Of a DNA stretch of 64,000 nt, positions 25,828-31,787 are shown one piece after another (the first letter of the stretch is position 1; each line of letters starts with the position of its first letter). The notes below the pieces were generated by a model. The model saw nothing but the letters and a program-made list of their open reading frames with translations. It had not been told where the DNA came from and did not search any database. This DNA is from Neisseria chenwenguii (lineage in GTDB: Bacteria; Pseudomonadota; Gammaproteobacteria; Burkholderiales; Neisseriaceae): positions 1 through 64,000 of the forward strand of contig NZ_CP022278.1 of NCBI RefSeq assembly GCF_002216145.1. Direction: 5' to 3'. Both the position numbers and the translations under genes were made by a program.

Positions 25828-26897
25828 GCATTACCATCCAAAACCTCAACAAACACTTCGGCAGTTTCCACGCGCTGAAAAACATCAACCTGATTGTGCC
25901 CACCGGCAAACTCGTTTCCCTGCTCGGCCCCTCCGGCTGCGGAAAAACCACACTACTGCGCATTATCGCCGGTTTGGAAAACGCCGACGGCGGCAGCATC
26001 TTTTTCGACGGCAACGACGTGACCGCCAAACATGTGCGCGACCGCAAAGTCGGTTTCGTGTTCCAACACTACGCCCTCTTCCGCCACATGAACGTCTTCG
26101 ACAACATCGCCTTCGGCCTGACCGTATTGCCGAAAAACAAACGCCCGGGCAAAGAAAAAATCAAAGCCAAAGTCGAAGAGCTGCTGGGTTTGGTGCAACT
26201 TTCCCACCTCGCCAAATCCTATCCGCACCAACTTTCAGGCGGCCAACGCCAGCGCGTCGCACTCGCCCGCGCACTCGCCGTATCGCCCAAACTGTTGCTG
26301 CTCGACGAACCCTTCGGCGCGCTTGACGCCAAAGTGCGCAAAGAATTACGCACCTGGCTGCGCGACATCCACCACGAGCTCGGCGTTACCAGCATCCTCG
26401 TAACCCACGACCAAGAAGAAGCGCTGGAAGTTTCCGACGAAATCGTCGTCATGAACCACGGCCACATCGAGCAAACCGGTGCCCCCACCGACATCTACCG
26501 CCACCCCGAAAACGCCTTCGTTACCGAATTTCTCGGCGAAACCGACGCTTTCGAAGGCTACATCGAAAAAGGCATGTGGCAATACGGCTGCTTCGGCTGG
26601 AAACTCGACGTCCACTACCAATGGCAGGAACAGACTGCCGTCGGCTACATCCGCCCCCATGAATGGCGCACCGCCCGCGCAGACGAAACCCCCATGTTCA
26701 CCGCGCCCGTCACCAAAATCCACGCCGTCGGCGCCCTCACCCACATCACAGTGAAACACGGCAAACAAGACGTCCACATCACCCTCGGCGGCAGCGACGC
26801 CGCCAAACTGGACTTGGCCGAAGGCAAAGCGCTCCCGCTCGTTCCCAAGCAGATTTATATCTTTTCGCAGAATGAGTTGATCGAATATACGATTTGA
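25824..26897 (+). CDS. cysA: Sulfate/thiosulfate ABC transporter ATPase CysA
   Basis: The ATP-hydrolysing subunit of the sulfate importer, 357 residues. Walker [11 protein letters not shown]-loop VFQHYALF, signature [16 protein letters not shown], Walker [13 protein letters not shown], switch His in LVTHDQEE, then a C-terminal TOBE-like regulatory domain. The ATG sits inside the cysW stop (ATGA), showing translational coupling; the frame extends further upstream but only as overlap with cysW. Confidence 0.95.
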
Positions 26898-27019
26898 GCG
26901 GATTGGGGAATATGGAAAGGCTGTCTGAAACTTCAGACGGCCTGATTACATTGAACATTGTCAACAATCGGCGCATAATTCCTGCTTTCATCCCATGCCG
27001 TCTGAAAAAGGAAACGACC

Positions 27020-28210
27020 ATGCAAAACTACCTGACTCCGAATTTTTCCTTCGCCCCCATGATTCCCGAGCGCGCGCTGGGCAGCCGCGTGTGGGATATC
27101 GGGGGGCGCGAGTATATCGACCTGTCGGGCGGGATTGCGGTCAACGCGCTGGGGCACTGCCATCCCGATTTGGTCGCCGCGCTGGCCGAACAGTCGCAGA
27201 AGCTGTGGCACATTTCCAATATCTACACCACGCAGCCGGCGCAGGATTTGGCGAAAAAGCTGGTGGAAAACACCTTTGCCGACAAAGTGTTTTTCTGCAA
27301 CTCGGGTGCGGAAGCCAACGAAGCGGCGCTGAAACTCGCCCGCAAACACGGGCGCGACCGCTTCGGCGAAAACAAACACGAAATCGTCGCCTGCCTCAAC
27401 AGTTTCCACGGCCGCACGCTGTTTACCGTTTCCGTCGGCGGCCAGCCCAAATACAGCCAAGACTACGCGCCGCTGCCGCAGGGCATCCGCCATGTGCCGT
27501 TTAACGACGTCGAAGCGCTTAAAGCCGCCGTCGGCGGACAAACCTGCGCCGTCATCATCGAGCCGATACAGGGCGAAAGCGGCATTCTGCCCGCCACCCG
27601 CGAATACCTCGAAGCCGCGCGCGAGATGTGCGACCGCCACGGCGCGCTCTTGATTTTCGACGAAGTGCAAACCGGCATGGGGCATACGGGCAAACTGTTT
27701 GCCTATGAGCATTACGGCGTTGTGCCCGATATTTTGAGCAGCGCCAAAGCGCTGGGCGGCGGCTTCCCCATCGGCGCGATTCTGACCACCGACCAAATCG
27801 CCTCCACCTTCGGCCCGGGTACGCACGGCTCGACCTTCGGCGGCAACCCGATGGCCTGCGCCGTCGGCAGCCGCGCGTTTGACATCATCAACGCCCCCGA
27901 AACGCTCGCCCACGTTGAAACGCAGGGCAAAAAACTGCAAACCGCGCTCGCAGCGTTGGGCAAAAAAACCGGCGTGTTTGAAGAAATCCGCGGCATGGGG
28001 CTGCTCATCGGCTGCGTTTTGGCCGGACCCTACAAAGGCCGCGCCGGCGAAATCACCGCCGCCGCCTTGAAACACGGCCTGATGGTTTTGGTCGCCGGCG
28101 CAAACGTCGTCCGCCTCGCCCCAAGCCTGCTGTTAAGCGACGAAGACATGGAAGAAGGGCTGAAACGGCTGGAAGCCGCGCTGGAAGGCTGGTTGGAAGC
28201 CAATCATTAA
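27020..28210 (+). CDS. argD: Acetylornithine/succinyldiaminopimelate aminotransferase
   Basis: PLP-dependent class III aminotransferase for arginine (and possibly lysine) synthesis, 396 residues. Key parts: GIAVNALGHCHPDL, FFCNSGAEANEAALKLAR, FHGRTLFTVSVGGQ, LLIFDEVQTGMGHTG, and the PLP Lys in SSAKALGGGFPIGA, followed by THGSTFGGNPMACAV. The start at 27020 has AAAAGGAAACG; an upstream in-frame start would translate a DUS. Monocistronic, ended by a DUS pair. Confidence 0.93.
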   Translation: MQNYLTPNFSFAPMIPERALGSRVWDIGGREYIDLSGGIAVNALGHCHPDLVAALAEQSQKLWHISNIYTTQPAQDLAKKLVENTFADKVFFCNSGAEANEAALKLARKHGRDRFGENKHEIVACLNSFHGRTLFTVSVGGQPKYSQDYAPLPQGIRHVPFNDVEALKAAVGGQTCAVIIEPIQGESGILPATREYLEAAREMCDRHGALLIFDEVQTGMGHTGKLFAYEHYGVVPDILSSAKALGGGFPIGAILTTDQIASTFGPGTHGSTFGGNPMACAVGSRAFDIINAPETLAHVETQGKKLQTALAALGKKTGVFEEIRGMGLLIGCVLAGPYKGRAGEITAAALKHGLMVLVAGANVVRLAPSLLLSDEDMEEGLKRLEAALEGWLEANH

Positions 28211-28228
28211 CCGATATTTTTCAAAAAA

Positions 28229-28254
28229 AGGCCGTCTGAATTTTCAGACGGCCT
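28229..28254. terminator. Inverted DUS pair between argD and the small peptide gene
   Basis: AGGCCGTCTGAA, 2 nt, and its inverse lie between argD and the convergent peptide gene, and can end both transcripts. Confidence 0.8.
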
Positions 28255-28283
28255 CCCAACTTTCAGTTGGTTGTACAAACATT

Positions 28284-28415
28284 TTATGCCCACTCGGCTC
28301 TTCCCGGTCTTCTATAAAATGAATTGACATGATCAAGAGTCAGATCCCATAAAGTAATGGTACAACCGAAACCACCGGAAACCTGTGCCAAGTCTTTGAC
28401 GGTCAATGTTTTCAT
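28284..28415 (-). CDS. Double-glycine-leader peptide (bacteriocin/signal-like), 43 aa
   Basis: A 43-residue peptide with a textbook double-glycine leader, MKTLTVKDLAQVSGG, fitting the LS-x2-EL-x2-[IV]-x-GG rule, followed by a 28-residue core that begins FGCTITLWDL, has a single Cys, and ends YRRPGRAEWA. AAGGAG lies 8 nt before the ATG. Such leaders are normally cut by C39-peptidase ABC exporters while the core is exported as a bacteriocin or signalling peptide. No exporter, immunity or modification gene is adjacent: argD is convergent and alaS lies upstream on the same strand. The gene and its leader region are much more AT-rich than the neighbours, suggesting acquisition. A 10-bp inverted repeat lies just upstream. 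I do not recognise the core peptide; cognate exporter and activity are unknown. Confidence 0.75.
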   Translation of the reverse strand: MKTLTVKDLAQVSGGFGCTITLWDLTLDHVNSFYRRPGRAEWA

Positions 28416-28443
28416 GATTCAAACTCCTTGAGAAGGTTTGTCA

Positions 28444-28472
28444 AACAGACATTACTGCACGCAATGTCTGTT
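28444..28472. promoter_or_regulatory. Perfect inverted repeat upstream of the double-glycine peptide
   Basis: AACAGACATT and its exact inverse AATGTCTGTT, 9 nt apart, 29 nt before the peptide ATG on the minus strand. It could be a repressor/activator operator or a hairpin in the mRNA leader. The surrounding 28416-28560 is AT-rich. I could not fix a sigma-70 promoter. Confidence 0.6.
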
Positions 28473-28559
28473 AATTATGACTCTTTTTTGACATTAAAGT
28501 TTTGCCTTTTTATGTTAAATTCCGTCGGTCAACCATAACATTCTTTATAAATTTAAAGC

Positions 28560-28592
28560 AGGCCGTCTGAAAAAACTTTTTCGGACGGCCTC
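28560..28592. terminator. Inverted DUS-like pair after alaS
   Basis: AGGCCGTCTGAA and GGACGGCCT (one base changed) form a short hairpin downstream of alaS on the minus strand. Confidence 0.55.
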
Positions 28593-28655
28593 AAATATTG
28601 TGTACGACTCCGCCTTTCGGGGCGAACGGCAGTGTCTGCGGAATGAAGAAGAAAA

Positions 28656-31550
28656 TCAGCCTAATTTTGCAACAATCCAGCCTTCCACGCTTTCCAGCGC
28701 TTCGGCCAGTTTCGCAACATCGCTGCCGCCTGCCTGCGCCAAATCGGGGCGGCCGCCGCCTTTGCCGCCGATTTGTTCGGCAACGGTTTTGACGAGGTCA
28801 CCGGCTTTGACTTTGGCGGTGAACGGTTTTGAGACGCCGGCGCAGAGTGAGACTTTGCCGTCGTTTACGGCGGCGAGCAGCACGACGGCGTTGTCGGCTT
28901 TGCCGGTGAGGTCGGTAACGATGTCGCGCAATGCGCCTGCTTCGGCGTCGATTCGGGCGACGATGAGTTTGGCGGTCCCCAGGTCTTTCGCGTTGTCAAA
29001 CAAGGCCGCGCCTGCGTATACTGCCAGCTCGGATTTGGCTTTGGCGAGCTCTTTTTCCAGCGCTTTGGTTTGCGCGGCGTTGGCTTGGATTTTCGCCAAT
29101 ACGTCTTTTTCGGTTTGCGCTTTCACTTCGGCGATGATGTCTTTGACCAAACGCTCTTGGTTTTGCGCCCAATTCAAGGCGTTCAGGCCGGTGATGGCTT
29201 CGATACGGCGTACGCCTGCAGCGATACCGCCCTCCGAAATGATTTTAAACAAACCGATGTCGCCGGTACGCGCAACGTGCGTGCCGCCGCAGAGCTCGGT
29301 GGAAAATTCGCCCATCTGCAATACGCGCACTTCGTCGCCGTATTTTTCGCCAAAGAGCATCATCGCGCCGGTTTTTTGCGCGTCTTCCATGCTCATGCTT
29401 TGCGCGCTCACGGCAACGTTGGCCAGAATCGCTTGGTTCACGCGGCGTTCGACTTCGACGATTTCCTCGGCGGTAACCGCTTGCGGATGGGAAATGTCGA
29501 AGCGGGTGGATTCGGCGGTCACCAGCGAGCCTTTTTGTTCGACGTGACTGCCCAATACGTCGCGCAGGGCGCGGTGCATGAGGTGGGTGGCGCTGTGGTT
29601 GCGCATATTGGCGTTGCGCACATCGTTGTCAACCTGCGCGGTTACGCTGTCGCCGACTTTCAGACGGCCCGAGGTCTGTAGGCCGAACTGGCCGAATACG
29701 GCGGCTTTGATCTTTTGGGTGTCGCGCACTTCAAAGCGGTTGCCGTCTGAAAAGATGAAGCCGACGTCGCCGACTTGGCCGCCGGATTCGGCGTAAAACG
29801 GGGTAAGGTCGATGACGACGGCACCGCTGTCGCCTTCGCTCAGTTCATTAACGGCTTCGCCGTCTTTATACAAAGCGATGATTTTGGCTTGCAGCTTGCG
29901 CTCGGTGTAGCCTTTGAACACGGTATCCTGGCCGTCGTAAGCCAGCTTGGTATCGGCTTTGAAGTTTTGCGCGGCGCGGGCGCGGGCGCGTTGGGCTTCC
30001 ATTTCGCGCTCGAATCCCTCTTCATCCAAATCAATGCCCAACTCACGCGCCATATCGGCAGTCAAATCATATGGGAAACCGAAAGTATCGTAGAGTTTGA
30101 AGACGTGTTCGCCCGGAATGATGAGTTTGCTGTTGGCGATGTTGTCATTCAGATAGACATCCAGCGCGGCGGCAAACGGTTTGTCCTCTGTCTGAACGTC
30201 GGCGTGTTCGATAATGTCCTGCAAGCCGATGACCAGTTTTTCATTCAGACGGCCTGCCTCCTGTGTAGCCAATACGACTTGTTTCGTTCCCGCCGCATTA
30301 CGCGACGCGGCGGTAAACTCGATGCCGTCTGAAGTTTTCAGTTTCAGCGGTTTGCCGCTGTTTTCAGACGGCAGCAGGCTTTCCAACTTCATAAATTTCA
30401 TGCCGTTCAATACCTTATTGAACAATTCCAAGCCTGTTTCCAGAGTTTGACCGAAACGCTCTTCTTCGCTGCGCAGTGCTTCGGTAATTTTGGTCTGATA
30501 CTCTTTCAATTCAGGGTAGGCATCACCCATTTCTTTCACCAAATCGGCAACCAATTTGTAGAAAAACGGTTTTTTCTGACCCAATTTGTAACCGTGGCGC
30601 ACGGCACGGCGGATAATGCGGCGCAACACATAACCGCGGCCTTCGTTGCTGGGCATCACGCCGTCGGCAATCAGAAACGAGCATGAACGGATATGGTCGG
30701 CAATCACTTTCAGGCTCGGCTCGTCCATACTGAACGGTGCGCCGGTTTCCCGCGCCACGGCTTTAAGCAGGTCTTGGAACAGATCGATTTCGTAGTTGCT
30801 GTGCACGCCCTGCATCACCGCGGCCATGCGTTCCAAGCCCATACCGGTATCGACGGAGGGTTTGGGCAGCGGGTGCATGTTGCCCTGCTCGTCGCGGTTG
30901 TACTGCATGAAGACGTTGTTCCAGATTTCAATCCAGCGGTCGCCGTCTTCCTCAGGGCTGCCCGGGATGCCGCCCCAAATCTCTTCGCCGTGGTCGTAGA
31001 AGATTTCGGTGCAGGGGCCGCAGGGGCCGGTGTCGCCCATCTGCCAGAAGTTGTCGGAGGCATAGCGCGCGCCTTTGTTGTCGCCGATGCGCACGATGCG
31101 CTCGGGCGGCAGGCCGATTTCGTTGAGCCAGATGTTGTAGGCTTCGTCGTCTTCAGCGTAAACGGTGGCCAGCAGTTTTTCTTTGGGCAGGTTGAGCCAT
31201 TCTTTGCCGGTGAGGAAGCCCCAGGCGAAATGGATGGCGTCGCGTTTGAAATAGTCGCCGAAGGAGAAGTTGCCCATCATTTCAAAAAAGGTGTGGTGGC
31301 GGGCGGTGTAGCCGACGTTTTCCAAGTCGTTGTGCTTGCCGCCGGCACGCACACATTTCTGCGCGGTGGTCGCGCGGGTATAGGGGCGTTTGTCGAAGCC
31401 GAGGAACACGTCTTTAAACTGGTTCATGCCGGCGTTGGTAAACAGCAGCGTGGGGTCGTCGTGCGGTACGAGCGAGGAAGAGCGCACGATTTGGTGGCCG
31501 TGCTGTTCGAAATATCGGAGGAATTTTTGGCGGAGTTCGGAAGTTTTCAT
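28656..31550 (-). CDS. alaS: Alanyl-tRNA synthetase with an extra internal segment
   Basis: Charges tRNA-Ala and edits mischarged Ser/Gly. 964 residues, about 90 longer than the usual bacterial enzyme (E. coli 876). N-terminal class II core starts [20 protein letters not shown]; the C-terminal part holds the editing zinc motif [11 protein letters not shown] and [13 protein letters not shown], then the DHHA1 domain. The extra length is one block at about residues 384-472, between [11 protein letters not shown] and [14 protein letters not shown], the linker after the aminoacylation core; it carries three DUS cores. The frame stays open, so it is presumably functional. Start at 31550 has GGAA at 8 nt. 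Confidence 0.95.
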
Positions 31551-31787
31551 GGTGTGTTCCAATCGGTTTAAACGTTTTCAGACGGCCTTATCCTTCCGGC
31601 AGGCCGTCTGAAGAATCCAAGTAAAAGAATGGCGTGTATCTTACCGCAAAACTGCCGCTCAAACCATATCCGCAGGCCGTCTGAAACATATAACCAAAGC
31701 CGATAAGATAAGTAAAATCCATTCTTTCCGCTTTTTTCAGACGGCCTTTATGATGCACGCCTCACAAACCCAAACGACTGCCGAACC

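Follow-up and report, generated by a model that had tools for sequence, protein, structure and literature searches.

A short reading frame in Neisseria chenwenguii poses the question of whether 43 codons that begin like the precursor of an exported peptide, with no exporter or immunity gene beside them, encode a secreted product and, if so, by which route it would leave the cell. The host genus is Gram-negative and includes two major human pathogens. Double-glycine leader peptides are already named in the database annotation of a few other Neisseria. Concerning experimental work on secreted peptides of this kind in the genus, one study was found, that of the gonococcal Naps (PMC11798529, in its accessible part), and a literature search with most subscription papers outside its reach returned nothing on the present peptide or on a dispersed leader repertoire in Neisseria.

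The reading considered most probable (roughly 0.6) is that the gene would encode the precursor of a secreted peptide that is processed and exported in trans and belongs to a dispersed repertoire. This repertoire is a larger finding than the peptide itself, and with 34 leaders and one C39 exporter the genome is an exceptionally rich system in which peptide diversification can be tested. Several points count against this reading: the core has no convincing relative in the genomes searched, its codon index is low, it is neutral, small and has one Cys, no immunity candidate adjoins the gene, no promoter is convincing, exporter and adaptor stay under the curated cut-offs of the secretion models listed, and some exporter genomes of the genus show no leader.

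The peptide gene and its surroundings

The window (the whole stretch of 64,000 nucleotides that was analysed) contains the following features at this locus.

28284 to 28415, minus strand: double-glycine-leader peptide precursor (P0001), 43-codon reading frame, from translation
28371 to 28415, minus strand: leader MKTLTVKDLAQVSGG, 15 residues, with M-15, L-12, L-7, V-4 and GG at -2/-1, matched by TIGR01847
28287 to 28370, minus strand: core FGCTITLWDLTLDHVNSFYRRPGRAEWA, 28 residues, 3326 Da, pI 6.75, one Cys
28424 to 28429, minus strand: Shine-Dalgarno sequence AAGGAG, 8 nt before the ATG
28444 to 28472, minus strand: perfect inverted repeat with 10-bp arms, AACAGACATT-9 nt-AATGTCTGTT, located before the Shine-Dalgarno sequence
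28223 to 28254, minus strand: predicted Rho-independent terminator, made up of a 12-bp hairpin with its arms at 28229-28240 and 28243-28254 and a T7 run behind it
28560 to 28591, minus strand: 14-bp hairpin with a single mismatch, separating alaS from the peptide gene

The translation consists of MKTLTVKDLAQVSGG and 28 further residues, followed by a stop. The strong AAGGAG site and the one-Cys core with its RRPGRAEWA tail, both described in the earlier note, are found again at these positions and in the translation. The gene lies between a plus-strand frame at 26894-28210 and a minus-strand frame at 28656-31562, which from their translations we take for argD and alaS, respectively; it is on the same strand as alaS and downstream of it, and it faces argD. 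The 300 bases from 28260 to 28559 have 37% GC against 54.8% for the whole window and fall within the lowest 0.5% of 300-base windows, so that the AT-rich setting between argD and alaS noticed earlier holds, with the neighbours read in this way. It also holds that no exporter gene adjoins the peptide gene and that no plausible candidate for an immunity frame is seen between argD and alaS. With these two genes as neighbours, no receptor or regulator gene stands beside it, and the window contains no tRNA genes. Three Rfam matches in 28100-28760 were rejected, all being under their gathering scores.

The gene looks monocistronic because a hairpin parts it from alaS and the 12-bp hairpin with its T7 run follows the stop codon at a distance of about 30 nt. 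A consensus terminator scan listed none in the region, and the hairpin at 28560-28591 is not followed by a strong T-run on the minus strand. No minus-strand promoter emerged from a consensus scan of the peptide-gene region; a scan by hand gave best candidates with 9 of 12 consensus matches, none of them convincing. The inverted repeat at 28444-28472 is a possible operator or 5′UTR hairpin. A search for it as a shared operator, covering the 200 bases that precede each of 24 other leader genes, gave no copy apart from one half-site with one mismatch at the leader gene at 378,495.

Leader and core of the precursor

On the 43-residue protein, the NCBIfam bacteriocin leader model TIGR01847 scores 19.2 bits against a cut-off of 15.7, in agreement with the exact double-glycine leader that the earlier note had read in the translated frame; in a six-frame search of the whole genome, the peptide reaches 18.8 bits (E = 0.012). 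Six of 14 control genomes also matched this model at E ≤ 10, one of them over the cut-off, and at E ≤ 0.2 the sole matching control was Lactococcus lactis. Two other models remained under their thresholds, namely TIGR03949 (class IIb, lactobin A/cerein 7B; 14.3 against 21.5 bits, leader end only) and the ComC pheromone model (Pfam PF03047; 12.3 bits against a gathering score of 20.4). In the accessible text of a co-crystal study, leader residues -4, -7, and -12 sit in the C39 groove of LahT150, and V-4, L-7, L-12, G-2, and G-1 of the present leader agree with the rule given there, i.e., hydrophobic residues at these positions and GG (PMC6363468).

Similarity extends to the DNA. A DNA-level search of 46 genus genomes (E ≤ 1) gave four best non-self matches at E < 0.001, two at loci of the own genome, one in genome G015 and one in G032, with 77-79% identity over 47-60 bases spanning only the leader and Shine-Dalgarno region. 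At E ≤ 1, 41 of the 46 genomes matched, the remaining matches being short and weak and none running across the whole core. For the leader DNA, identity reaches 76% with a peptide gene of the exporter locus and 78% with a peptide gene that has a transmembrane neighbour.

The core behaves differently. In a search of 100 genomes (the own genome plus 45 from the genus, 14 from the family, and 40 from the order; E ≤ 0.1), none of the 45 other genus genomes matched, and the sole other genome with matches was G089, from the order, with two weak ones inside long frames; in the own genome, a second locus at 1,172,825 matched the peptide over the leader end. Among 399 order genomes searched at E ≤ 0.01, two matches were obtained besides the own genome, with E values of 0.001 and 0.005; they lie within frames of 275-288 residues, one of which contains a stop, and are read as chance rather than as relatives. 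The earlier note had held that a frame without conservation in relatives would speak against the gene, and on this point its expectation failed (0 of 45 in the genus; 2 of 398 in the order, taken as chance). A search of 5.8 billion proteins returned, from a single candidate, the peptide itself, whose database entry has one member sequence on two contigs, one of them that of the own genome. The peptide is thus listed in a protein database, and the view that it is short enough to be skipped by gene callers has to be softened: it is probably not always skipped. Neither a degenerate DNA pattern for an 11-residue core stretch run against the GTDB collection nor a tblastn search of plasmids with the peptide gave a match, own and close records having possibly been left out of both. 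When core and downstream DNA were compared in three frames with the fetched loci, excluding four that hold the peptide gene itself, no homologue appeared among the matches listed beyond the terminator repeat. Weak protein-level matches of the core, with E from 0.03 to 0.6, are taken as chance. The C-terminal part of AlaS could be located in 45 of 46 genus genomes; 30 loci were fetched, and in the rows listed for them, which show the DNA past alaS for part of the loci, no such peptide was seen by eye.

Coding signal in the core is likewise low. Its codon index of 0.26 is the second lowest of 25 leader genes, the other 24 spanning 0.25-0.58, and does not exceed that of shuffled core DNA (P = 0.75). 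A recent, foreign, or decayed core could fit both this index and the conservation results. By eye, the core tail resembles FYPRRT of another repertoire peptide.

A chance reading frame with a coincidentally leader-like start would account for the small size of 43 codons, for a core that stays open in 15% of shuffles, and for the missing relatives. It is nonetheless very improbable because of the DNA similarity of the leader region to two genes of the own genome and two of other genomes, unless that too is coincidental; the TIGR01847 score over its cut-off in a whole-genome context and the properly spaced Shine-Dalgarno sequence also argue against it.

A more serious alternative, possible though on the whole unlikely, is a decayed remnant, in which the leader and 5′ region of a former longer bacteriocin gene survive and the core has been lost or scrambled. 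The restriction of the best DNA matches to the leader and Shine-Dalgarno region is what such a remnant would leave, as are a core and downstream DNA without a homologue, the lack of a codon-usage signal in the core, and the missing immunity gene. In a relative, such decay can be observed: at G032:602,951 (L075), a frame of 23 residues corresponds to an 84-residue gene of G015 in truncated form, with 98.7% identity over 460 bases and one gap. In the same genome, the DNA of a 21-residue frame at 200,360 (L061) matches a longer bacteriocin-like gene of the own genome at 84%. As both short frames match longer genes elsewhere, decay of leader genes in the genus is suggested by these sequences. Against a remnant at the present locus, the Shine-Dalgarno sequence, start codon, leader, and the terminator just past the stop are all intact; the low codon index is common to the repertoire, and a core of 28 residues lies inside the range of 9-74 residues found in the 27 leader genes listed. 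A genuine double-glycine precursor gene is therefore considered likelier than a remnant.

The leader repertoire and the single C39 exporter

The earlier note described the gene as standing alone. This is correct locally and does not hold genome-wide, where a leader profile finds 34 leaders in 2.5 Mb, at 16 sites by our grouping. The profile consists of 30 rows, 23 of them leaders of the own genome (this peptide's included) and 7 from relatives, and most of the 34 therefore match by construction; four were first seen with the profile (935,826; 1,467,021; 1,467,241; 1,467,494). The independent TIGR01847 search of the genome (E ≤ 10) gives 18 matches; 14 exceed the cut-off, including two that do so only with their neighbours in frame. 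When read out, these matches are mostly short reading frames with 15-residue leaders and differing cores, and additional ones came to light in the stretches fetched around them. Three identical copies are included among the 34 leaders, and the one at 1,983,267 lacks an obvious start codon. A Shine-Dalgarno-like word precedes 21 of the 31 leader genes examined (three of the 34 are not in that list). Further peptides of the MKTLTV...GG type, which the earlier note had envisaged, do exist, e.g., at 1,172,843, where 12 of 15 leader residues are identical to those of the present peptide.

With the same profile (E ≤ 0.01), 12 of 46 genus genomes match, with counts after the own genome of 13, 10, 10, 9, 6, 6, 5, 2, 1, 1, and 1. 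In a class sample of 369 genomes including the own, six match and the five others hold 1 to 3 leaders; none was found in 363 of the 368 other genomes. As 25 of the 38 own-genome candidates were scored in this sample, the own genome shows 25 there. In the protein database, a profile of eight leader peptides matched 13 proteins at E ≤ 0.01, this peptide included. Three source-named matches come from named Neisseria species and are called "bacteriocin" or "ComC/BlpC family leader-containing pheromone/bacteriocin". The database-named Neisseria dentiae bacteriocin (P0013) is letter for letter the leader peptide of G022 (L056), which belongs to the genus set.

Within the genome, near-identical leaders are joined to dissimilar cores. 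In global DNA alignments, whose core percentages stand without a separate control of unrelated DNA, the pair 528,679/539,536 shows 98% identity in the leader, 100% in the upstream 40 bases, and 40% in the core; the corresponding values are 98%, 68%, and 42% for 528,893/531,054 and 98%, 60%, and 24% for 529,696/530,233. Pairs with related cores also occur, e.g., 528,893/529,125 (93%) and 1,136,197/1,172,843 (70%). The pairs with dissimilar cores suggest that cores are exchanged under near-constant leaders, a pattern in the sequences that does not prove the mechanism.

Several sites are of interest in themselves. A dense cluster of leader peptides (L109) occupies 528,452-531,230 and 539,309-539,770. 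Within it, one 40-residue peptide (MKLLSLKELEKVAGG...) is encoded three times in identical form, and a leader peptide gene whose core differs begins 227-247 bases after the start of each copy. The same order recurs at a second site (1,467,021-1,467,538), where two leader peptides whose cores differ come after a relative of the 40-residue peptide. At 1,214,998 (L048), the 42-residue core of a 57-residue precursor contains five Cys, and its charge is computed at about +11.

Small hydrophobic reading frames after a peptide gene are the usual mark of an immunity gene. Three of the 27 leader genes (1,136,197; 1,172,843; 1,281,686) are followed by a non-leader frame of 62-101 residues with a strong hydrophobic segment, and judged from sequence they are the best bacteriocin candidates of the repertoire. 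Two of them, 1,172,843 (L039) and 1,136,197 (L046), are 85-residue Gly-rich bacteriocin-like precursors, each with such a frame, and these are possibly toxin-immunity pairs. The peptide at 1,172,843 gives weak scores with the Pfam models MccV and Bacteriocin_IIc, below both cut-offs.

The genome also holds a C39-peptidase ABC exporter of the kind that the earlier note presupposed. There is one C39 match, and it heads a 717-residue peptidase-ABC frame without stops, in which the Pfam domains C39, ABC_membrane, and ABC_tran are all over their cut-offs. Its C41, H114, and D130 have the spacing of Cys32, His105, and Asp121 given for CvaB in the accessible part of PMC9746304. At E ≤ 1e-20, the exporter matches 310 PDB sequences; among them, the alignment spans residues 26-710 for the bacteriocin transporter PCAT1 (4RY2) and 34-709 for ComA. 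Exporter and adaptor match NCBIfam secretion models strongly, yet under the curated cut-offs among the models listed. The neighbours are an HlyD-family gene, a gene with an OEP domain (TolC-like), and three short reading frames with leaders of the same type; the distance to the peptide gene is 1.08 Mb.

Exporter and leaders go together in the genus. C39 matches occur in 20 of 46 genomes, and a long C39-ABC frame was counted in 13, a number that includes G019 (476-residue frame, taken as cut by the contig) and G020 (frame with one stop) and leaves G008, with a partial 463-residue frame, outside. Such a frame is present in seven of the eight genomes with at least five leaders against 6 of the 38 others (Fisher p = 2e-4, uncorrected for kinship), the exception being G015, an 85% complete genome. 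Five of the 13 exporter genomes (G002, G013, G016, G019, and G035) have no leader at E ≤ 0.01. Ten genus genomes have C39 matches in short frames (about 190-260 residues), either in addition to an ABC exporter or in its place, and these are perhaps stand-alone peptidases like NapP.

Possible function and comparison with known systems

According to the preferred explanation, the 43-codon frame would form a monocistronic transcription unit and encode a small peptide destined for secretion. Its 15-residue leader would be recognized, and cut after GG in trans, by the C39 domain of the one C39 ABC exporter found in the genome, and the 28-residue core would then be exported through this distant pump together with the HlyD-like adaptor and the TolC-like channel. 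The peptide would be one member of the dispersed repertoire, in which the leader serves as a constant export address and the cores vary.

Antagonism is the default function for the double-glycine peptide class. A bacteriocin-like action on related bacteria is accordingly the most likely single function, although unproven and at somewhat less than even odds; a role in autolysis or signaling follows with about half that weight, and the rest of the estimate falls to no function at all.

The function cannot be read from the leader because the gonococcal Naps, which are of the same general kind, act in autolysis. A signaling or self-directed peptide (pheromone, autolysis, biofilm) sharing the export mechanism of the preferred explanation is rather improbable, and under it the immunity gene would be missing because of that very role. 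In the parts of the two papers available, Nap peptides have no antibacterial activity and promote autolysis (PMC11798529), and four double-glycine peptides enable biofilm formation in Synechococcus (PMC4997328). However, argD and alaS offer no receptor or regulator, the ComC score is below its cut-off, and the genus-wide conservation that would be expected of a signal is contradicted by the 45 genus genomes in which the peptide was not found.

Returning to a secreted peptide of the repertoire, a broader and rather doubtful proposal is that the genome carries a distributed, diversifying peptide arsenal, in which constant leaders would address one C39 pump, cores would be exchanged under them, and single genes such as the present one would lie scattered in intergenic sites with no immunity genes. 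If true, the peptides would act collectively or on targets that the producer lacks, and not as classical toxin-immunity pairs.

Among known systems, class II microcins (MccV/CvaC) and class II bacteriocins have in common with this peptide a 15-residue double-glycine leader with L-12, L-7, and V-4, and the C39 ABC exporter, HlyD-like adaptor, and TolC-like protein of class II microcins are also encoded in this genome. Mature class II microcins are, in the accessible text, of about 5-10 kDa (PMC10233263), whereas the present core is of 3326 Da; they have adjacent immunity and close exporter genes, whereas here no immunity candidate is seen beside the gene and the exporter is far off.

The nap island resembles the locus in that it concerns Neisseria, small double-glycine peptides, and low-GC DNA; there, the genes for the Naps, which are cationic, are flanked by those for a FapF-like protein and for NapP, which is a stand-alone C39 peptidase (PMC11798529, as far as accessible). 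Here, in contrast, a full C39-ABC exporter lies at a distance, the core is neutral (pI 6.75), and the neighbours are argD and alaS, so that the peptide does not fall among the Naps. Bacteroidetocins are also short double-glycine peptides without an immunity gene, but, in the part of the paper available, they have at least two Cys and are encoded next to genes for an ABC transporter/peptidase and for a membrane protein (PMC6671954). The present peptide has one Cys and no such neighbour genes.

Gram-negative double-glycine peptides were reportedly surveyed by Dirix in 2004. Leaders of the same type are present in the database-named leader peptides of Neisseria yangbaofengii, N. wadsworthii, and N. 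dentiae, which have unrelated cores; BLASTP covers 37-44% of this peptide, at the leader end. In Prochlorococcus MIT9313, the substrates are lanthipeptide precursors with a modifying enzyme. The likeness to that organism resides in a single genome with about thirty double-glycine precursors and diverse cores, 30 double-Gly RiPP precursors being given for MIT9313 in the accessible text (PMC6363468).
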